In this document: piece after piece, positions 13,243 through 23,308 of the stretch
Layout of the letters: the number at the start of each line of letters is the position of its first letter
Numbering within the stretch: the first letter of the stretch is position 1
DNA from: a virus
Length of the DNA stretch: 23,374 bases
IMG/VR virus record: IMGVR_UViG_3300003691_000054
Coordinates: 1-23,374 of that record
Strand: one strand, 5' to 3'
Program-made: the position numbers and the translations under genes
Notes under the pieces: generated by a model
Told to the model about the DNA's origin: nothing
Database searches by the model: none
The model's input: only the letters and a program-made list of their open reading frames with translations

Positions 13243-13794
13243 TCATCTTTTTGTTTGTAATTCTTTCAATTTCTGCTTATATAACAACTCTATTTCTTTT
13301 AGCTCCTCACAAGTATACTTAACTATCTCGTGAGGCCCTTCTATCCAATCTAGCTTATCTAAACCTATCTTCTTAATCAAAGCAGGGCGATAATTACTAA
13401 TATTACCAGACAAATGATTGTTACAGGGAGCGCACTGTTTATGACAGTTGAGTTCTTCAAATCTAAGTTCAGGATGCGCCCCACGGCTTCTATAATGACC
13501 CGCATGATATTGACCGTTATGATTGCGGCCACAACTAACACAAGGCAAGGAATAATCACGCTCCCTAATATAAGCGTTAAAAGCGGCTTGAGCTTGCTTT
13601 TCTCTGAAAGGTCTATCATTACTCTTTAACTCCTTTTTTTGCTCTCTGTGTTTTATTTTGCGGCCTTGCTCTTTATTTTTGTAACCATGTTTGGTTGCAT
13701 GTTCGATATTGCAGAAATAAGATATATTAACCTTGATAGCATCTTCTGGCTTATTGTACTTTTTACAGTGAGGGCATTTACGCTTATTAGCCAT
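13243..13794 (-). CDS. ninG: NinG-family (Rap) recombination endonuclease
   Basis: I chose the ATG at 13794 because AGAGG lies about 8 bases upstream and the family begins there; the longer frame to 13887 adds unrelated residues. The 183-residue product has the NinG layout: CPHC at 7-10 with a further Cys at 28, a long basic helix (EQGRKIKHREQKKELK), then the HNH-like zinc core CVSCG at 85-89, QYHAGHYRSRG near 96-105, and NCHKQCAPCNNHLSGN at 116-131. Lambda NinG (204 residues) cuts branched DNA and supports Red-pathway recombination in place of or beside host nucleases. It is the last gene of the leftward operon, just before the terminator. Confidence 0.9.
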   Translation of the reverse strand: MANKRKCPHCKKYNKPEDAIKVNISYFCNIEHATKHGYKNKEQGRKIKHREQKKELKSNDRPFREKQAQAAFNAYIRERDYSLPCVSCGRNHNGQYHAGHYRSRGAHPELRFEELNCHKQCAPCNNHLSGNISNYRPALIKKIGLDKLDWIEGPHEIVKYTCEELKEIELLYKQKLKELQTKR

Positions 13795-13810
13795 TCTTAA
13801 AGCCTCTGTA

Positions 13811-13999
13811 TCACAGATTATTGTTAATATTTTTTGCAATTGATTTAATCCAACTAACAGCACCATCATGCAAATTCTTAACACCACACTGTAAATGCAT
13901 CAATTTGCGCTTAACCTTTTTACGTGGCTCATGCGTATATATATACTGCTTACAATGTGTGCAGTTAGGACCACTATACTTACTTGTCATGTTAATCAT
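13811..13999 (-). CDS. Small zinc-finger-like protein
   Basis: ATG 13999 (AAAGGG 7 bases upstream) gives 62 residues; ATG 13990 is an alternative. CTHC near residues 13-16 and HLQC near 36-39 could hold one zinc ion, with a strongly basic stretch between (PRKKVKRK). It overlaps the resolvase stop by 8 bases and lies 16 bases before NinG. A nucleic-acid-binding role is a guess; lambda also has short unknown genes beside ninG. Confidence 0.6.
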   Translation of the reverse strand: MINMTSKYSGPNCTHCKQYIYTHEPRKKVKRKLMHLQCGVKNLHDGAVSWIKSIAKNINNNL

Positions 14000-14543
14000 T
14001 CTCAAGCCCTTTATATTTATAAATAGTTGATGTACCTATATTCATCGCATTAGCTATTTCCATTACTGATTGACCGCTAGCTATACGGTTTTTCATTTCA
14101 GTTATTACTTTCTTTTTTAATGGCCTACGCCCGAACTGTTGGCCTCTTTCTTTTGCCTTTGCTATACCCTCTCTTTGTCTTATTTTCAGGTTAGCTATTT
14201 CAAATTGATTTACAGCACCAAATACAGAAAGCATCAAGTAACCCATAGGATTATCTCTGCCAGCAAATTCAAGGTTTTCAGTTTTAAACTTAACTGATAC
14301 GTTTTTTTCAACCAGCTCCGAAACTATATTAAGCAAATCTTTTAAGTTCCTGGATAATCTATCCATCGAGTGTACGTGTAAAGTATCACCCTCACGCAAG
14401 AAGGATAGGCACTCTTTTAACTGTGGGCGCTCTCTATCTTTACCGCTTATTTTTTCCTCGTAAACCCTGTCTAACTTAATTCCGTCTAATTGACGATCTA
14501 AGCATTGATCAATAGAGCTTACGCGCATGTATCCTACTATCAT
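13992..14543 (-). CDS. Serine recombinase of the resolvase/invertase family
   Basis: The 183-residue protein has the same length as gamma-delta resolvase. Residues 5-18 (YMRVSSIDQCLDRQ) carry the nucleophile, Ser9 in the RVS motif. Arg39 follows the usual spacing, and HSMDRLSR at 58-65 supplies the two active-site arginines. A long E-helix follows (104-130), and residues 140-180 form a helix-turn-helix (VMEIANAMNIGTSTIYKY). The HSMDRL and LMLSVFGA patterns are closer to Tn3/TniR resolvases than to Gin or Hin. An oddity: the Glu-Arg pair expected early in the E-helix reads Glu115-Ile116. It could resolve phage DNA multimers or a plasmid-like prophage, or invert a segment. No res or inversion site was identified. 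Confidence 0.85.
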   Translation of the reverse strand: MIVGYMRVSSIDQCLDRQLDGIKLDRVYEEKISGKDRERPQLKECLSFLREGDTLHVHSMDRLSRNLKDLLNIVSELVEKNVSVKFKTENLEFAGRDNPMGYLMLSVFGAVNQFEIANLKIRQREGIAKAKERGQQFGRRPLKKKVITEMKNRIASGQSVMEIANAMNIGTSTIYKYKGLEND

Positions 14544-14555
14544 TAATTTGTACCT

Positions 14556-14705
14556 CTACTTAAAAATAAAATCTATTACGGAATTAATGAGAACACCATT
14601 AACTCCTGTTGCGCTTGAGCAAATCATATCGACATAACCGAATGCAACTATCGGTATCATTGCTTTGTGCCTAACTATTCTTTGCCATAATTTAGGTTCA
14701 TCCAT
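14556..14705 (-). CDS. Hypothetical 49-residue protein
   Basis: Read by hand: ATG at 14703-14705, MDEPKLWQRIVRHKAMIPIV to start, ending NSVIDFIFK and TAG at 14556-14558. The last lysine codon and TAG form the AAG-TAG linker whose next bases, AGG, are the resolvase ribosome-binding site. Upstream it has the GTAGGATTTGAAT linker shared with its neighbours. A mildly hydrophobic centre (MIPIVAFGYVDMI) might contact a membrane. No family recognised. Confidence 0.6.
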   Translation of the reverse strand: MDEPKLWQRIVRHKAMIPIVAFGYVDMICSSATGVNGVLINSVIDFIFK

Positions 14706-14734
14706 ATTCAAATCCTACCTTTTCGTAAAATTAA

Positions 14735-14923
14735 TTAGCGCACTTCTGATAGTTTAACTGTCACTTTCCAAAAATTAGGCTGGTGATCAAAAGGGGCACT
14801 AATCTCTTTAATAATGAATTTTCTACCTAAGCGAAAATAAACTTCCTCATTGTTAAAGTGCTCAATAATATCTCTAAGTTCATTTTCTTCATTAGGGAGT
14901 ATCAATTCTAATTGTTCGTCCAT
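14735..14923 (-). CDS. Hypothetical small acidic protein
   Basis: 62 residues beginning MDEQLELILPNEENELRD; the N-terminal half is strongly acidic, the C-terminal half is beta-like (FWKVTVKLSEVR). The linker GTAGGGTTTGAATT precedes its ATG. Its TAA is followed by 29 bases before the next start, the widest spacing in this gene run. No family recognised. Confidence 0.6.
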   Translation of the reverse strand: MDEQLELILPNEENELRDIIEHFNNEEVYFRLGRKFIIKEISAPFDHQPNFWKVTVKLSEVR

Positions 14924-14933
14924 AATTCAAACC

Positions 14934-15128
14934 CTACTTTTGTGGGAACTGTTTAGTGAATTTATCTAACAAATCATCTTCACAGCATTCATCGGCAAAA
15001 TCCCATAGACAGTCGGTACATTTGATACGACTAAAGCCAAGTTCTCGACTACTCTCAATCGTAAGTGCAAAATCATCGTTACCACACTGAGGACATGGCT
15101 GCTCACATAATTCCATAATAGGTTTCAT
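14934..15128 (-). CDS. Small zinc-ribbon protein
   Basis: 64 residues. CPQCGNDDF at about 12-20 and IKCTDCLWDF at about 35-44 place two CxxC pairs as in a zinc ribbon; an acidic helix follows (ADECCEDDLLDKF). Phages carry many such proteins, often thought to bind nucleic acids or RNA polymerase, but nothing specific shows here. It starts after the linker GTAGACGGAGAAATAACG and ends QFPQK-TAG, the same last residues (QK) as two genes further up the run. Confidence 0.7.
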   Translation of the reverse strand: MKPIMELCEQPCPQCGNDDFALTIESSRELGFSRIKCTDCLWDFADECCEDDLLDKFTKQFPQK

Positions 15129-15142
15129 CGTTATTTCTCCGT

Positions 15143-15331
15143 CTACCTTGATAGATTAATTATTTGCTTCATTCCTGAATGTCGAACATGAAGCCTATGT
15201 AATTTGTTTTTGTAAAAGACAATTAAGCACCCATGCCACCATCTAACAAAGTAACAACTTTCAAAATTGTGTTTTGTTACCGCATGAGAAACATAAACTC
15301 TTTCACCTTGCTTTGGATGCCACCTACTCAT
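15143..15331 (-). CDS. Hypothetical small basic protein
   Basis: 62 residues, rich in His, Arg, Trp and Tyr (VSHAVTKHNFESCYFVRWWH, later KLHRLHVRHSG). The first part resembles a small SH3-like beta barrel. Its TAG stop at 15143-15145 forms the start of the next gene's GTAGACGGAG ribosome-binding site. No family recognised. Confidence 0.6.
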   Translation of the reverse strand: MSRWHPKQGERVYVSHAVTKHNFESCYFVRWWHGCLIVFYKNKLHRLHVRHSGMKQIINLSR

Positions 15332-15343
15332 ACAAGCCTACTT

Positions 15344-15559
15344 TTAAATAATAATTTCTTGGTTAGTTCTTGCATCAGATAACTTTCTAATTAACTCAAC
15401 TTCACAACTGGTAAAGCTATCTGGTGTAATGCCGTGATTAGCGTTACAACGAAATGATTCAATTTTATCAATCAAGTCAAACAAAGCTTCAGCTTCATAT
15501 TTTCTTTCGAGTTTTATAGTTACAGGTCTGAACGGTAACTGCTCTTGTTGCACTTTCAT
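15344..15559 (-). CDS. Hypothetical small protein
   Basis: 71 residues, largely helical (KYEAEALFDLIDKIESFRC, then CEVELIRKLSDARTN). It starts after the GTAGGATTTGAATT linker. The stop is TAA followed two codons later by an in-frame TAG that lies in the next ribosome-binding site, so the older stop was probably the TAG. No family recognised. Confidence 0.6.
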   Translation of the reverse strand: MKVQQEQLPFRPVTIKLERKYEAEALFDLIDKIESFRCNANHGITPDSFTSCEVELIRKLSDARTNQEIII

Positions 15560-15584
15560 AATTCAAATCCTACTTTAAAATAAA

Positions 15585-15923
15585 TTAATTTAACTTTGTG
15601 CGTCTTTTCCAGTAAGTGTGATTAAAATCACCAATAAGTTTTCTACATTCTTCTTTTGCCTTATCACGAATAAAGCCTCTACCATTTGGAGTGCCTTGAT
15701 ATACTAAGAATGAGTAATCGCACTTGTATTTAATTACGTGAACTTTACCGTTAACCTTTATGCTAAATCGTGGGTTCTCATTAGAGTTATCCATCATTTT
15801 GCATAAGTAGTATTGGTCAGATTTAACGCCTAAACCTACAAGCTCACTATCTTCACTAACATGGCCATGTACAAAGAATTTAATTCCTTTAGGGATGTAT
15901 CTCGCATTCGCATCTAACATCAT
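15585..15923 (-). CDS. Hypothetical protein
   Basis: 112 residues starting MM; the second ATG (15920) is also possible. Mixed alpha/beta, with a beta-rich first half (FFVHGHVSEDSELVGLG, FSIKVNGKVHVIKYK) and a basic C-terminal helix (KEECRKLIGDFNHTYWKRR). GTAGGAAAGA precedes the start. The TAA stop is followed five codons later by an in-frame TAG at 15570-15572 in the next linker. No family recognised. Confidence 0.65.
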   Translation of the reverse strand: MMLDANARYIPKGIKFFVHGHVSEDSELVGLGVKSDQYYLCKMMDNSNENPRFSIKVNGKVHVIKYKCDYSFLVYQGTPNGRGFIRDKAKEECRKLIGDFNHTYWKRRTKLN

Positions 15924-15929
15924 TCTTTC

Positions 15930-16142
15930 CTACTTTTGTGTAACTGGAAATTCCCAGTCACCCAATACGATATATTTAACTATTGACTCTACTAGCGCCA
16001 TAAGAACAGCGGTTGTCATAATAAAGCCAACACCGATAAACCAACCTATTACACCTATTTGATAGGTCGGGATAACTATGATTGCCGTCATAAGCACAGC
16101 AAACACGACAAAGTAAATAACTTCTCCAATCCTCTTTAACAT
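15930..16142 (-). CDS. Small membrane protein with two transmembrane helices
   Basis: 70 residues. Hydrophobic helices at about 8-26 (VIYFVVFAVLMTAIIVIP) and 30-52 (GVIGWFIGVGFIMTTAVLMA), with a short charged N-terminus and a C-terminal tail ending EFPVTQK. The final PVTQK is shared with the next gene upstream, the similarity continuing through the TAG and ribosome-binding site. Possible roles are exclusion of other phages or a holin-like function, but it is not beside an endolysin, so neither is supported. Confidence 0.65.
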   Translation of the reverse strand: MLKRIGEVIYFVVFAVLMTAIIVIPTYQIGVIGWFIGVGFIMTTAVLMALVESIVKYIVLGDWEFPVTQK

Positions 16143-16157
16143 TTGCTCTTTCTCCGT

Positions 16158-16400
16158 CTACTTTTGTGTAACTGGTATTGATACTGGTTTAGATGATTCG
16201 ATAGAGTAAACAGGATCAAAATCAGTTTGCATTTTAAATTCGTGAATAACTCCATCGTCATCTTCAACATAAACCTCAAACCTAATATCTCCGCTTTCAT
16301 CAATTTGGTGATATTCATCAGCGAAGTTTTGCGCTGCTTCGTCCAAATCACCACCCTGAACATCTTGTAAATCATCGATGTAAAATCCTGCTCTAGCCAT
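16158..16400 (-). CDS. Hypothetical highly acidic small protein
   Basis: 80 residues with about 20 Asp/Glu against about 5 Lys/Arg, for example DDLQDVQGGDLDEAAQNFAD and VYVEDDDGVIHEF. Such charge is seen in phage DNA-mimic proteins (anti-restriction, anti-CRISPR), but composition alone does not prove this. It ends SIPVTQK and a TAG embedded in the linker. A different-frame ORF at 16136-16375 overlaps it and is a shadow. It starts after the GTAGACGGAGAAATAACG linker. Confidence 0.65.
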   Translation of the reverse strand: MARAGFYIDDLQDVQGGDLDEAAQNFADEYHQIDESGDIRFEVYVEDDDGVIHEFKMQTDFDPVYSIESSKPVSIPVTQK

Positions 16401-16414
16401 CGTTATTTCTCCGT

Positions 16415-16588
16415 CTACTTATTCGTAATAAATTTTAAGTCTTGCGTTCTAACACAAGCGTAACCACGTTTTAATAAAAACCAAACGCATACTCTAGCCA
16501 TCCATTCATATTTAACCGTAAAAGAATAAACATCTTTATAGTCGTCTGGTGTCCACGCTTGCGGTGCGACTTCATAACCTTTTTTCAT
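16415..16588 (-). CDS. Hypothetical 57-residue protein
   Basis: Read by hand: MKKGYEVAPQAWTPDDYKDV onward, ending LKFITNK and TAG at 16415-16417. It fills exactly the space between two linkers, with GTAGGCTGAT before its ATG and its TAG inside GTAGACGGAG, so it is a real member of the gene run. Aromatic-rich centre (VKYEWMARVCVWFLLKRGY). No family recognised. Confidence 0.65.
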   Translation of the reverse strand: MKKGYEVAPQAWTPDDYKDVYSFTVKYEWMARVCVWFLLKRGYACVRTQDLKFITNK

Positions 16589-16594
16589 ATCAGC

Positions 16595-16963
16595 CTACTT
16601 TAAAAGACTAAATACTTTAGACATATCATCCTCAACAGTAAAATCTACTGAGACTAACTGTCCTAATTCCTTTTTACTGTAATGGACGCTCTCTGTATAC
16701 TGACCTTCTTTTTCTGAAAAACTCATTACGCCACATTGAAAAGATGATGTTGATACACGCCCTTTGCTATCTATATCCCAACTTTCATCGGCATATACAG
16801 AGCCATTATCAAAAACAAAGGTGGGGCATAAGCTATATCTATCATGTAAACTATTATCATCTTCACTATGGTAAAGCTCGTCAAACTTAATAAATTGCTC
16901 TGGCGTTAGGCTTGCTTCGTCCCATTCTCTATGAGAAACCTTGTGTTCAATCTTTACGCTCAT
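16595..16963 (-). CDS. Hypothetical protein, first gene of the small-gene operon
   Basis: 122 residues, acidic, mainly beta-like in the centre (CPTFVFDNGSVYADESWDID, RVSTSSFQCGVM). It starts at ATG 16963 with AAGGAA about 7 bases upstream, and lacks the shared linker because it follows the promoter at 17058-17086 by a leader of about 88 bases. Its TAG stop is embedded in the linker of the 57-residue gene. No family recognised. Confidence 0.65.
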   Translation of the reverse strand: MSVKIEHKVSHREWDEASLTPEQFIKFDELYHSEDDNSLHDRYSLCPTFVFDNGSVYADESWDIDSKGRVSTSSFQCGVMSFSEKEGQYTESVHYSKKELGQLVSVDFTVEDDMSKVFSLLK

Positions 16964-17057
16964 TTTAATTTCCTTTTTCTATAAAAGTTTACTGAATACA
17001 AACAGCAAGTTACATTAAAACTAACTCTATAAACCCACTGTTCGCTTGTTATATTTA

Positions 17058-17086
17058 ATACTAGACCTTAATATAATTAAAGTCAA
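17058..17086 (-). promoter_or_regulatory. Sigma-70 promoter of the small-gene/resolvase/NinG operon
   Basis: Reading leftward, TTGACT (17086-17081), a 17-base spacer and TAGTAT (17063-17058) make a near-consensus promoter. Transcription would start near 17051, giving a leader of about 88 bases before the ATG at 16963. It lies between that gene and the ninB stop at 17100. Confidence 0.75.
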
Positions 17087-17099
17087 CGCTTATTTTAAA

Positions 17100-17519
17100 T
17101 TAATTATCTTGCTTGTCTTGTAGTTGTTTATATTCGCAATCATCAGGTATTGTTAGCGTGTAACCTTCTCTCATGCACCATGCTTGTATTTGATTTAGAT
17201 AATGATGCATTTCACCTGTATCTAAGTTAGTTGTAGTTTTAACTATTGCAGGCTCACCTAGTGGCATATCAATAGTTTTTTCTGGACAATACCATTTTTT
17301 AAAAAACTCAGCCCATATCTCGCCACTGAATTTAACACCATTAACGTGAGCTTGCTTTGCTAGTTCAGCCATCCATTTCCAGTATAGGGAGTTTTGATCG
17401 TTACTTCTCTTCTCTCGCCATAAAACGATAGTGACTCGATAAGCCTTAGTTAAATCTAACTTCCACAACTCCTGTATAAACATTCCTATAGAATTAACGG
17501 TTAACTTAAAGTTTTTCAT
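17100..17519 (-). CDS. ninB: NinB-family recombination mediator
   Basis: The 139-residue protein (lambda NinB/Orf 146) has the family core YRVTIVLWREKRSNDQNSLY at about 27-46 with the conserved R-S-x-D-Q-N and the following W. A helical region follows (AELAKQAHVNG), then WAEFFKKW and a C-terminal QIQAWCMREGYTL, as in other members. Lambda Orf binds single-stranded DNA and SSB and replaces RecFOR in loading recombinase. It lies alone between a structured gap upstream and the next operon's promoter downstream. No clear ribosome-binding site precedes ATG 17519, only a weak GAAATAAGG-like stretch. A leftward -35-like TTGAAC at 17574-17569 lies beyond the palindrome at 17544-17559, so expression may be repressed through that site. 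Confidence 0.85.
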   Translation of the reverse strand: MKNFKLTVNSIGMFIQELWKLDLTKAYRVTIVLWREKRSNDQNSLYWKWMAELAKQAHVNGVKFSGEIWAEFFKKWYCPEKTIDMPLGEPAIVKTTTNLDTGEMHHYLNQIQAWCMREGYTLTIPDDCEYKQLQDKQDN

Positions 17520-18479: not shown

Positions 18480-19094
18480 TTATATCTTCTCCAAAACTAA
18501 AAAATAACTGTGAAAAATTCTTGCGTGTTTTTGTATTTTCTTTTTAGTTCCTTCTTGTTGCGGTATTGGCATGCGATGTTTAACCGGGAGAATAAATAAG
18601 TCTTTCAACCTAAATAAACCATTCGCCCATTCCACAACATTCATGTGTGTACAGTGCATTTTGTGATTGTGGATGATATCCTGACATTTAAAAACCATGA
18701 TTCCTTTTTTATCAAGTACCCGGTGAGCTTCAATCAATGTTTCCCGGTAATGCTTTTCTAATTCATCATAACGCCAGTAACCGCCAAACCGTTTAGCCAT
18801 AATCATGTTTCCGTTACCTTCCCGGGCTGCTCTAACGTATGTTAGGAATGGAGGGTCAAACACTAGGCTTTTAAGCTTACCACCCTCTAACGGCAAGGCA
18901 CTACTAGAGAACCCTAATACATCATGCCCGTGCTGCGGTGCTATATCAAACCGAAGTAGGGGTTTTGGTATGGAATCGTTATCGTAAAACTTACCGTTCC
19001 CATAAGATATGTCAGCGCCAAATCTTTTTATGCCACAAAGCTCCATAATTGATTTTAATATATCTATTTGGTCGTAATAAACTGATCTAATCAT
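18480..19094 (-). CDS. DNA methyltransferase-like protein
   Basis: I chose ATG 19094 because GAGGTG lies 5 bases upstream; the longer frame starts with GTG 19106 inside that ribosome-binding site. The 204-residue product has LVFDPPFLTY at about 77-86, the catalytic DPPF-type motif IV of amino-methyltransferases acting on DNA. Upstream RFDIAPQHGHDVL fits the acidic SAM-side loop, and downstream EAHRVLDKKGIMVFKCQDI resembles the strand after it. A standard FxGxG motif is not obvious, so cofactor binding may differ. Phages use such enzymes to protect DNA from host restriction or to mark it. Target base (N4-C or N6-A) cannot be told. It overlaps the 19087 gene by 8 bases. Confidence 0.75.
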   Translation of the reverse strand: MIRSVYYDQIDILKSIMELCGIKRFGADISYGNGKFYDNDSIPKPLLRFDIAPQHGHDVLGFSSSALPLEGGKLKSLVFDPPFLTYVRAAREGNGNMIMAKRFGGYWRYDELEKHYRETLIEAHRVLDKKGIMVFKCQDIIHNHKMHCTHMNVVEWANGLFRLKDLFILPVKHRMPIPQQEGTKKKIQKHARIFHSYFLVLEKI

Positions 19095-19290
19095 TATACA
19101 CCTCACTATCTATTGGCTCGAACATTGAGCAGTTTTTATACGGGTCAGGGTCGTCATCAACAGAGCAAGAGCCATCATTTTCAACAGAAAACCCGTACTC
19201 ACTGTTTTGAATATTCAATTTGTCATGATGTTTTTCATCGAACATATCGCATTTGTCGCAGTCATGACTTTGATTATAAATACAGCTCAT
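19087..19290 (-). CDS. Hypothetical Cys-rich acidic small protein
   Basis: 67 residues starting MSCIYNQSHDCDKCDMFDEK; five cysteines (3, 11, 14, about 42 and 54) and the acidic VDDDPDPYKNCSMFEP might bind a metal. It overlaps the gene before by 4 bases (ATGA) and the methyltransferase by 8. No family recognised. Confidence 0.6.
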   Translation of the reverse strand: MSCIYNQSHDCDKCDMFDEKHHDKLNIQNSEYGFSVENDGSCSVDDDPDPYKNCSMFEPIDSEVYND

Positions 19291-20406: not shown

Positions 20407-21018
20407 TTACTCCTTAATCCTATTCTTAATTATTTCAGCCATTCGTTTCTCAATATCAGTTTTACCTTGACCTCTATTAGTCACTTGCTTATCCATCTCG
20501 GTAACTACAGATTCAGCAGCTAATAACTTTTGATCACGAACCGGTAACTTACCTTTACGCTTTAACTCAAGTTTCAATTTAAACGTTTTATTAAATAACG
20601 CTCTTGCTTTCGTATCATCTAAAACCTTTTTACACTGATAACCAACATCAACTCTCGTGAAATACTCAACATCATCTAGAGCTGGTTTACGATTAATCAT
20701 CCTGTTAAAAGCTTCTGTAGTATCGAAATCTAAGCACAAACTTAAAAACTGAGGCAATGATGGCGGCCATGTTAATCTCTCGCTTATAGTGCGCTTTACG
20801 CCCCTCTGTAGATGATTATTCGTAATCGATGAAAGTTCCGCTATCCATATGCTCGATGGTTGCTCCCCTCTCTCCCTCATCCACTGCTCGCCCCAAATGT
20901 CCGTCATTTGCTCCCATATCCAATCCGCATTCATCGGACTGTCTATATTTGGCGTTGTTTCTTTCGACAACTCTTTCGTGTGCTGAAAGTTTTTGACTAG
21001 ATTTTTGAGATTGTCCAT
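20407..21018 (-). CDS. Lambda P-like replication protein (helicase loader)
   Basis: 203 residues (lambda P 233). WPPSLPQFLSLC at 84-95 is the hallmark of the phage P family, preceded by IWGEQWMRERGEQPSSIWIA and HLQRGVKRTISERL, which match the conserved first domain. The rest is basic and helical. Lambda P binds host DnaB and loads it at the origin with O. ATG 21018 has AGGGGA 7 bases upstream and so is well supported, although it starts 203 bases inside the preceding O-like gene in another frame. The conserved domain itself lies partly in the overlap. An origin would be expected near or within the O-like gene; I could not identify iterons there. Confidence 0.8.
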   Translation of the reverse strand: MDNLKNLVKNFQHTKELSKETTPNIDSPMNADWIWEQMTDIWGEQWMRERGEQPSSIWIAELSSITNNHLQRGVKRTISERLTWPPSLPQFLSLCLDFDTTEAFNRMINRKPALDDVEYFTRVDVGYQCKKVLDDTKARALFNKTFKLKLELKRKGKLPVRDQKLLAAESVVTEMDKQVTNRGQGKTDIEKRMAEIIKNRIKE

Positions 21019-21504: not shown

Positions 21505-22113
21505 ATGTCTTTTATTGAAATCAAAGCAAGTAAGAAATCATTATCTTTTAGGGGCTTGGTTTGCGGGGTAGGAGTAAATGATGCTGAATATATGATTGAG
21601 CGCATATTCGAGGGGAAGTCTTATGTATGTCCTTATTATAGGGTTTGGTCTCACATGATTGAGAGGTGCTATTCTATTAAATACCAGAAATTAAAGCCAT
21701 CATATATTGAATGTTCAGTTTGTGATGAGTGGCTTGTTTTTTCAGTGTTTGCTCGATGGATGAAAAAGAAAGACTGGCAAGGTAGGCAGTTGGATAAGGA
21801 TATATTAGTTCAAGGAAATAAAATTTATTCTCCAGACACTTGTATTTTTGTCGAGTCATTTATAAATAACTTATTTATAAAAAGCCAAAATAAAAAAGGG
21901 TCGTTGCCTGTTGGTGTTTACAAAGCAAAAAAAGAGAAAACATATAGAGCAAGTTGTAGGCATGGAGGCAAGTATATATATTTAGGAAATCATAAAACAC
22001 CAGAGGTGGCAAGTGAGGCGTACAAGGCGTTCAAGTGTAAAGTAATAGCTGAAATAGCAGAAAATCAAGATGAGCCATTAAGAACGGCATTATTGAACTA
22101 TAAAATAAACTAA
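21505..22113 (+). CDS. Putative AP2-domain phage endonuclease-like protein
   Basis: 202 residues. The first 125 follow a pattern I know from phage proteins related to homing endonucleases: YYRVWSHMIERCYS at 44-57, PSYIECSVCDEWLVFSVF at 65-82 and LDKDILVQGNKIYSPDTC at 96-113. Residues 134-180 (LPVGVYKAKKEKTYRASC, KYIYLGNHKTPEVASEAY) match the AP2-like DNA-binding repeat used by several phage HNH endonucleases. The nuclease core differs from a standard HNH, with few His, so activity is unsure. Free-standing copies spread by cutting phage genomes that lack them. It starts after GAGGA, directly downstream of the divergent promoter. Confidence 0.65.
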   Translation: MSFIEIKASKKSLSFRGLVCGVGVNDAEYMIERIFEGKSYVCPYYRVWSHMIERCYSIKYQKLKPSYIECSVCDEWLVFSVFARWMKKKDWQGRQLDKDILVQGNKIYSPDTCIFVESFINNLFIKSQNKKGSLPVGVYKAKKEKTYRASCRHGGKYIYLGNHKTPEVASEAYKAFKCKVIAEIAENQDEPLRTALLNYKIN

Positions 22114-22471: not shown

Positions 22472-22819
22472 ATTGCCTCGAATAAATCCACAATAAATAC
22501 CTCGATTATAATTTATACGTCTATTGCGAAAGCTAACCACGGTTGGATTATTATTTAAAGCACTACAACGATCGCCCATAGTGCAACTGAGTTCTAAAGT
22601 TATTATAGGGGCTGGACACTACAAGAAGTGGAATGATAACGACCTAATTTAATCTTGTTAATGATTAGGTGTCTAAGCGATGCGATGGCTCCGAAGTCAT
22701 ATATTGTTGATTAGATATTAGAACTAAACTCATTTATTTGGGTTTGGGGTTCTTTTATCTTTTCACTCCACAATTCACCAAAGTCATGTATTAAGTAACT
22801 AGTGACTAAAGAGATTAAA
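22472..22819. other. Gene-free stretch with a hairpin and promoter-like boxes
   Basis: No convincing coding frame on either strand in about 350 bases. It starts with GCCTCGAATAAAT (22475-22487), close to the sequence after the terminator at 956-990. A perfect TATAAT lies at 22507-22512 without a good -35. ACCTAAT (22642-22648) pairs with ATTAGGT (22664-22670), with TTAA pairs inside. This may be a long leader of the HNH gene, an untranslated RNA or remains of a lost gene. Confidence 0.5.
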
Positions 22820-23308
22820 ATGAGTAAAGGTAAAAGAAATCTAAAGGCTAAAAAGGCAGAAAATAAAATAAAGCTTGAGCTCGCAAAAGCAAAATGCGCT
22901 TCATTCGTTGGATTGCCAAAAGATAAATATTCAATGTTAGAAATAGTAATTTGCGTATCCGCTAAATTAAATATTGTTGTTCGTGGTGATATACATCCGA
23001 ATGCACAGATAAAACATCTTGCAGGGCTCGTTAATAAAAAGCCTTATATTGTTTGCAAGAGAACAAAGAAGGACTTTTACTCTAGCAGGTCATGGAAAAT
23101 ACTTCGATACCAAGCTTTTGAGAAATACGGAAACCGGTGCCAGTGTTGTGGGGCTCGTCCTAGTGACGATATAGCTTTGCATGTTGATCATGTTAAACCT
23201 AAATCAACTCATCCTGAGCTCGCTTTGGATTTAAACAACCTACAAATACTTTGCGAAGATTGCAATGTAGGAAAAATAAACCAGTGGGATACTAACTGGA
23301 AAGCATAA
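22820..23308 (+). CDS. HNH endonuclease
   Basis: ATG 22820 (AAAGAG upstream) gives 162 residues; a GTG at 22802 has no ribosome-binding site. The C-terminal half is a complete HNH unit: FYSSRSWKILRYQAFEKYG at 86-104, CQCC at 107-110, LHVDHVKPKS at 120-129, LDLNNLQILCEDCNVGK at 136-152. His121/His124 and Asn139-140 are the metal and catalytic positions, and two CxxC pairs bind a structural zinc. The basic N-terminal 85 residues probably bind DNA. Phage HNH proteins act as free-standing homing enzymes or in DNA processing and packaging. Here it lies among control-region genes, far from terminase, and near another putative homing nuclease, so the first is more likely. Confidence 0.85.
   Translation: MSKGKRNLKAKKAENKIKLELAKAKCASFVGLPKDKYSMLEIVICVSAKLNIVVRGDIHPNAQIKHLAGLVNKKPYIVCKRTKKDFYSSRSWKILRYQAFEKYGNRCQCCGARPSDDIALHVDHVKPKSTHPELALDLNNLQILCEDCNVGKINQWDTNWKA

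Follow-up and report, generated by a model that had tools for sequence, protein, structure and literature searches.

Short stop codon/ribosome-binding-site linkers as probable joints between interchangeable single-gene cassettes in a nin-like region of phages

The complete IMG/VR virus record IMGVR_UViG_3300003691_000054 (23,374 bases, itself a fragment; hereafter the window) contains an array of small minus-strand genes in which the hexamer A[AG]GTAG lies just upstream of ten consecutive starts, between positions 14544 and 16608. Comparison with related records suggests that these linkers are probably short conserved boundary sequences that join interchangeable single-gene cassettes of temperate phages, serving both as stop codon and ribosome-binding site (RBS) and as the homology for exchange. 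Gene exchange between linkers is well supported, and we infer the enzymes of this exchange as well as a re-initiation of translation across the TAG.

Ten linkers in the window

The genes behind the ten linkers start at positions 16588, 16400, 16142, 15923, 15559, 15331, 15128, 14923, 14705 and 14543. As the initial annotation had claimed, AAGTAG or AGGTAG is fused to the RBS at all ten starts, and we obtained exactly its count for the role of the TAG, which is the true stop of the preceding gene in seven junctions, an in-frame second stop in two (6 and 15 nt downstream of the true stop) and out of frame in one, that of gene 14556-14705. Identity also extends into the coding ends of two genes, as had been reported: 16158-16400 and 15930-16142 both close with the same 18 nt, CCAGTTACACAAAAGTAG, which encode PVTQK*. 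Downstream of the hexamer, suffixes of class A (GATTTGAATT or variants) and class B (ACGGAGAAATAACG or variants) are present in three copies each; the other linkers have GCTGAT, GCTTGT, GAAAGA and AGGTACAAATTA, and for three of these four the relatives contain matching or similar classes.

The hexamer is confined to this region. It occurs 20 times on the minus strand of the 23,374 bases, which gives a binomial probability of about 6e-22 for its presence at 10 of the 11 array starts. By comparison, it precedes none of the 10 other minus-strand starts and one of the 15 plus-strand starts (Fisher p = 5e-7), so the linker is not the ordinary RBS of this genome. The possibility of an ordinary genome-wide RBS, raised by the initial annotation itself, was rejected from this figure of one in 25 other window genes and from the longer relatives, where the hits cluster in the array. 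In the control phages jenny 12G5, Edno5, PH357 and 1.081.O, the hexamer was found at one of 120 open reading frames of at least 50 aa.

Linkers in related phages and prophages

IMG/VR was searched with exact linker patterns and with the window proteins, and whole records were then scanned; these metagenomic contigs may be fragments or chimeric. We found the same linkers joining different genes in 13 further records (G001-G005, G007-G010 and G013-G016), the most useful being G001 (36.8 kb), G002 (41.3 kb, with two separate arrays), G003 (48 kb), G004 and G005. Linkers are also present in two prophage contigs of a bacterial genome, G023, the only one among 395 sampled genomes of the GTDB order around a Providencia genome, its placement being to that order; one of these two contigs agrees with G015 in length and coordinates and was taken as the same sequence. 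The class B linker has 19 exact matches in 84,980 bacterial species genomes, none with a repeated linker array, and the two that precede an ATG (L037 and L051) are both isolated. No linker array was found in the annotated phages and plasmids searched, and the DNA similarity of annotated phages to the array region is limited to NinG. Pattern hits at L002-L007, L009-L014, L016-L019, L065, L071-L076, L078 and L080 showed no array and were taken as chance matches.

A small vocabulary of freely combined halves

We tabulated 47 junctions from the window and its relatives, counting the classes in the very data from which they had been defined. All share one layout, a 5' prefix, the AAGTAG hinge, an RBS suffix and the ATG. 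The linkers had been described as near-identical and as forming two main classes. Classes A and B stand, but the invariant part is the hinge (exactly AAGTAG in 42 of 47 junctions), and about seven suffix classes and four prefix classes occur around it. The prefixes, with a conserved TTA at -8 to -6 and a conserved A at -1, are TTACACAA (encoding TQK*), TTATTTTA, CTATCA and TTACGAAT. The suffixes, each of them a plausible RBS, are A and B as above, C (AGGTGAGT), C' (AGGTT-type), D (GCTGAT), E (GAATGAACAA) and F (GAGCAAAAATTAA). The mutual information between prefix and suffix class (0.38) lies below the permutation mean (0.46; p = 0.81, and p = 0.92 in the core set), and the two halves therefore combine freely. 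A pure coding tail, i.e., the TQK* protein motif, was ruled out as the whole story by G004, where the upstream gene ends at a TGA that is followed by TTACACAAAAGTAG as non-coding DNA; the prefix is therefore not merely a coding tail.

Two conserved leader families (one in the window, G001, G003, G005 and G016, the other in G002, G007 and G009) end in a linker of a second type, in which an RBS follows GTACTT(A/T)A or TAAACTT(A/T)A; this type is also found inside arrays, before the gene encoding the MKFTAQ protein and repeatedly in the prophage contig C15. At L093 5167-5313 and 6747-6920, array genes that precede this second type have SQK* as their coding end, resembling the TQK* tails of AAGTAG linkers.

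The initial annotation had offered a shared translation signal as one explanation, comparing the linkers to the start-associated sequences (SAS) of cluster K mycobacteriophages. A purely translational reading would hold that the linker is kept since the ribosome, or a phage or host factor, needs the stop within the RBS for coupling or regulation, gene movement being incidental. It fits the position of all linkers at starts and their confinement to one region, as well as the TAG, which is the used stop in 33 of the 47 junctions and a later in-frame stop in 7 (thus in frame in 40), leaving 7 out of frame. Moreover, AAGTAGG can pair with the anti-Shine-Dalgarno sequence around one mismatch or interruption, with the stop codon within or beside the Shine-Dalgarno (SD) sequence, and for this reason a translation role alongside exchange is likely. 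Yet exceptional RBS strength was ruled out, the anti-SD duplex energies of linker RBSs being the same as those of other genes (means of -5.9 and -5.9 kcal/mol). Such a signal also does not account for some seven unrelated suffix classes of differing lengths, for conservation that in at least two classes reaches 8 nt upstream of the stop, even where non-coding, for a recombinase gene that is kept in relatives with differing suffixes, or for exchange edges that fall at the hinge. The common sequence upstream of the stop and the position of the exchange edges make translation alone insufficient and, as the sole explanation, unlikely.

Exchange edges often fall at linkers

In an unbiased all-against-all DNA comparison of the records, we found single-gene matches in differing contexts, the similarity often beginning at the hinge. 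Window positions 16158-16400 (the MARAGF gene) match G010 with 87.6% identity over 250 bp that begin with AAGTAG and end with TTACACAAAAGTAG, between unrelated neighbours. The gene at 14934-15128, encoding a CPxCG protein, is 85% identical in G003, with its right edge at the hinge; its homologue in C15 sits between a GGGTAG-type joint and TTACACAAAAGTAG. The MKFTAQ gene is 88.5% identical between G001 and G003, with its left edge in the second linker type. For the serine recombinase gene that ends the array, similarity begins at the linker though the suffix differs among relatives: C in G001 and G004, F-type in G003, G005 and G016, and AGGTACAAATTA in the window. Relatives thus keep this gene mostly with another class of the same vocabulary, not with a decayed linker, as would be seen had the same genes simply diverged at their joints.

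The most recent exchanges are visible in the contigs of G023. C13 and C15 have in common a 296-bp gene stretch of 98.6% identity, whose left edge is sharp: the 60 nt that begin with AAGTAG are 100% identical and the 60 nt before it 25%. The prefixes differ, being TTTTA-type on one side and TTACACAA on the other, and on the right the stretch ends at GCGTACTT, a linker of the second type. C15 also contains a 188-bp duplication (99.5% identity) of a gene for a 48-aa protein, starting at AAGTAG, and one copy reaches the end of the contig. This contig of 57,582 bases opens and closes with the same 127 bases (L099 1-127 and L093 7457-7583), and the sequence that follows these terminal bases at the contig start differs from that after the internal copy past GTACTTAAAAAGAGGAA. 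This fits a second copy ending at the linker GTACTTAAAAAGAGGAA if the contig is circular.

For 10 of 18 array gene matches, the left edge is no more than 10 nt from a hinge, against 13% expected (p = 2e-5), in a small set that was assembled after the linkers had been seen. Over all matches, with leaders not separated, edges are only mildly enriched near hinges, as leader matches and the right ends of the recombinase gene dilute the signal.

The other explanation of the initial annotation, that the linkers are recombination joints allowing cassettes to be swapped, is strongly supported by these data: linkers join other genes in relatives, their halves assort freely, and cassettes of 85-99% identity end at them. 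The edges could also stem from illegitimate recombination at random points, followed by selection for joints that leave genes intact, the linkers having spread by gene duplication and by descent and other products having been lost. This explanation is preferred for most joints of mosaic genomes (PMC3233612; PMC3029335), and it accommodates edges off the hinge and pairing lengths that are often short. However, edges would then be spread over intergenic DNA, without a small common vocabulary, whereas hybrid joints here nearly always re-create a prefix-AAGTAG-suffix of known, freely assorted classes, and the two youngest events start exactly at the hinge. We therefore consider random joining an improbable source of the array.

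A possible mechanism of exchange

In the mechanism that we favour, a linker has three parts: the tail of the upstream gene, the AAGTAG that usually holds its stop, and the RBS of the downstream gene. With such pieces common to many genes and phages, two phages or prophages in one cell could pair at linkers that flank unrelated genes, and a crossover there would import a whole gene already fitted with stop and RBS. Exchange may proceed by general homologous recombination, through annealing or strand invasion, possibly helped by Orf (NinB) and Rap (NinG) where these are encoded; orf and rap contribute to phage mosaicism, a role known from lambda (PMC3945230). The layout with the stop in the RBS would couple the translation of neighbouring genes, and the array genes would be accessory genes for interaction with the host. 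Pairing requires at least 23-27 bp with Red-beta and 31-34 bp with RecA (PMC3945230). The longest exact identities between linkers before unrelated genes (21-28 nt) are near these lengths; general recombination is therefore a plausible route where the match is longer and a strained one where it is shorter. An exonuclease PHROG is matched by proteins in G004 and near the second array of G002; G004 also encodes an SSB-like protein, and no annealing protein was identified.

Several observations weigh against exchange by pairing at linkers. Many linker pairs fall below the published minima, often with only 6-20 identical nt, and 13 of 1081 pairs reach 23 nt while none reaches 31. Eight of the 18 left edges lie more than 10 nt from a hinge; the left edge of the CPxCG gene in G003 is near an internal ATG or start codon without a hinge, and the right edge of the MKFTAQ gene is at the next start codon, again without one. 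The linker classes and the second hinge of the edge count were defined after the data had been seen. No annealing recombinase was identified in the window, and NinG was found in 3 of the 13 relatives searched, so that help from Orf and Rap is not general. Finally, an exchange at another place with subsequent loss could also leave an edge at a common motif.

A site-specific mechanism would have the serine recombinase at the array end cut the linkers to insert, remove or shuffle genes, like an integron run by a serine recombinase. Its gene directly follows a linker in six records (the window, G001, G003, G004, G005 and G016), and the free assortment of left and right half-sites is what such exchange would give. 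On the other hand, some phages with arrays have no detected recombinase, with none found in G002 (41 kb) and G006-G011, several of these being fragments; the linker has a conserved core but no coherent two-fold symmetry of its arms (arm match of 0.17-0.38 depending on the centre, 0.26 in shuffled sequences); the right halves are unrelated, with no consensus; and cassettes are bounded just as well by the second linker type (GTACTT), which is unrelated. We regard this as very unlikely, and the serine recombinase may simply be one more cassette. Hardly more probable is a dedicated phage activity directed at the AAGTAG hinge, e.g., nicking by the serine recombinase or by some other enzyme linked to the array, which would raise exchange above the level of general recombination. 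In that case the array would stack genes in a programmed manner through standard stop/RBS joints, instead of using homology passively.

Pairing at boundary sequences, which we prefer, bears on how viral genomes become patchworks, through standard joints and single-gene swaps made exactly at them. This phage group offers a clear natural case, with a small joint vocabulary, combinatorial halves and exchanges recent enough (98.6-99.5% identity) for their edges to be read directly. It supplies defined sequences that could be mutated for crosses, lets unannotated small phage genes be located through their joints, and exemplifies standardised genetic connectors in nature.

Comparison with known systems

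The early-region genes of the window, with a helicase loader, NinB/Orf, the array, the recombinase and NinG/Rap, make the array the equivalent of the lambda nin region. Interlinked genes in that region were reportedly described by Kroger and Hobom in 1982, and work on HK97, HK022 and HK620 is said to have dealt with short conserved boundary sequences of lambdoid phages.

In the boundary-sequence model of lambdoid phages, short conserved sequences at gene borders are targets of homologous recombination (PMC3233612; PMC3029335), although they cannot be found at most mosaic joints (PMC3029335; PMC3233612). The linkers are a variation on this idea. Both share the place between ninB/orf and ninG/rap with its small, tightly packed genes, a common sequence at the borders of unrelated genes (the 47 junctions, 42 with the exact hinge), module edges that coincide with it, though not every edge, and the proposed role in homologous recombination. 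In contrast, A[AG]GTAG is present at none of the 11 lambda starts checked, lambda using mostly ATGA overlaps, and the linkers are bipartite, combinatorial and present in at least 14 phage records, with recent exchanges of defined edges.

The SAS of cluster K mycobacteriophages is a single sequence of 13 bp, GGGATAGGAGCCC, frequently preceded by 17-bp inverted repeats and located 3-7 nt before the starts of unrelated non-structural genes in one orientation (PMC3203893; PMC12699233). The likeness proposed in the initial annotation is one of position, and partial even there: the linkers are repeated asymmetric sequences in one orientation a few nt before unrelated starts, overlapping the SD and sometimes, like SAS, including the upstream stop codon, but the distance from hinge to start varies between 6 and 15 nt in the window, compared with 3-7 nt. 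It does not extend to the sequence itself. The SAS consensus GGGATAGGAGCCC has no match in the window at up to two mismatches and two matches at three (chance mean 2.2), not at linkers. The imperfect 17-bp inverted repeats of the extended SAS (ESAS) do not precede the linkers; the only inverted repeats in 14500-17110 are three short A+T-rich ones, none repeated upstream of linkers. Unlike SAS, the linkers have several suffix classes, a conserved upstream prefix and evidence of gene exchange.

The PeSL promoter/stem-loop cassettes of T4-type phages (Arbiol 2010 and Comeau 2014, as outlined in PMC4503421) are transcription elements proposed to serve modular gene shuffling. As far as that outline goes, the linkers resemble them as repeated intergenic regulatory sequences with such a proposed role and differ from them in being stop/RBS sequences without a stem-loop, promoter- and terminator-like sites being at chance level. 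The array also resembles an integron in its single-gene cassettes in a row behind a conserved leader, its repeated boundary element and the nearby gene for a site-specific recombinase. It differs in lacking a tyrosine integrase at the array, a folded attC-type site and linker inverted repeats, and in having a small serine recombinase, two unrelated boundary types and arrays without recombinase.

Genomic setting and array genes

The virion proteins are encoded on the plus-strand half of the window, with a head-closure protein at 1040-2449, and the minus-strand half is a lambda-like early region, with a P-like helicase loader (20407-21018) and a DNA methyltransferase (18480-19106). On the same strand, the array is flanked upstream by a NinB/Orf recombination mediator (17100-17519; PHROG 72, E 1e-32, and Pfam NinB) and downstream by a NinG/Rap endonuclease (13243-13887; PHROG 171, E 2e-73), the latter also downstream of the array in G001, G002 and G010. 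The kind of relatives found suggests a marine origin for the virus.

A conserved non-coding leader of about 120 nt (16964-17099, minus strand) precedes the array and ends in the second linker type, AGTAAACTTTTATAGAAAAAGGA. It is 74-80% identical to the same position in G001, G003, G005 and G016, with 74-84% conservation between records, and the array genes downstream differ. The leader contains a promoter-like pair, TTGACT-N17-TAGTAT, at 17086-17058; since promoter-like sites in the array region are no commoner than in shuffled sequence, this promoter rests on conservation. Terminator-like sites there are likewise no commoner than in shuffles, and an Rfam search gave no match.

The array genes, all on the minus strand, follow in descending coordinates. 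The first (16595-16963, 122 aa) ends K*TAG in linker 1 (16589-16608), GTCTTTTA-AAGTAG-GCTGAT of class D, of which TTTTAAAGTAGGCTGATATGAAAAA (25 nt) is identical in G002; the TAG is the true stop here and in linkers 2, 3, 4, 7, 8 and 10. After the gene at 16415-16588 (57 aa), linker 2 (16401-16428), TTACGAAT-AAGTAG-ACGGAGAAATAACG of class B, has 23 nt identical in G002 and G003 and precedes the cassette gene matched in G010 (16158-16400, 80 aa, MARAGFYIDD...PVTQK). Linker 3 (16143-16171), TTACACAA-AAGTAG-ACGGAGAAAGAGCAA, is a class B variant with ACCAGTTACACAAAAGTAGACGGAGAAA (28 nt) identical in G009; the gene behind it (15930-16142) encodes a hydrophobic protein of 70 aa that ends in PVTQK, and linker 4 (15924-15943), TTACACAA-AAGTAG-GAAAGA, leads to a gene for 112 aa (15585-15923). 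The TAG is in frame 15 nt past a TAA stop in linker 5 (15560-15583), TTATTTTA-AAGTAG-GATTTGAATT of class A, before the gene at 15344-15559 (71 aa), and 6 nt past a TAA stop in linker 6 (15332-15351), TTATTTAA-AAGTAG-GCTTGT, before the gene at 15143-15331 (62 aa). Linker 7 (15129-15156), (AT)CTATCA-AGGTAG-ACGGAGAAATAACG of class B, precedes the CPxCG cassette (14934-15128, 64 aa), whose relative in G003 and distant homologue in C15 have different neighbours. Linker 8 (14924-14947), TCCCACAA-AAGTAG-GGTTTGAATT, and linker 9 (14706-14728), TTACGAAA-AGGTAG-GATTTGAAT with its TAG out of frame, are both of class A and precede genes for 62 aa (14735-14923) and 49 aa (14556-14705), respectively. Linker 10 (14544-14569), TTATTTTT-AAGTAG-AGGTACAAATTA, precedes the serine recombinase (13992-14543, 183 aa), of the small resolvase/invertase type (PHROG 125, E 4e-57; Pfam Resolvase, 1e-34). 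Pfam and PADLOC gave no match above cut-off for array genes, and the CPxCG protein is the only cassette protein that matches a PHROG, one of unknown function.

Further features were seen in the relatives. In G002 (L059 2327-2352), two hinges stand back to back (ACAAAAGTAG repeated) before one gene, resembling the scar of a lost cassette, and in G001 the leader runs straight into a hinge. The second leader family (L059 455-557, L062, L063 and L060; G002, G009 and G007) has a near-perfect inverted repeat before TAAACTTAAATAG-RBS, in G007 TTAATAGAGATA...TATCTCTATTAA, a possible operator or hairpin. C15 encodes a ParA-like protein (L099 3429-4013) and an SSB-like protein, as judged by eye, and is possibly a circular phage-plasmid; a related gene and a ParA-like gene are also present in G008 (L061). 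Beside the early region of the window, two plus-strand genes (21505-22113 and 22802-23308) encode look-alikes, by eye, of HNH-type endonucleases.

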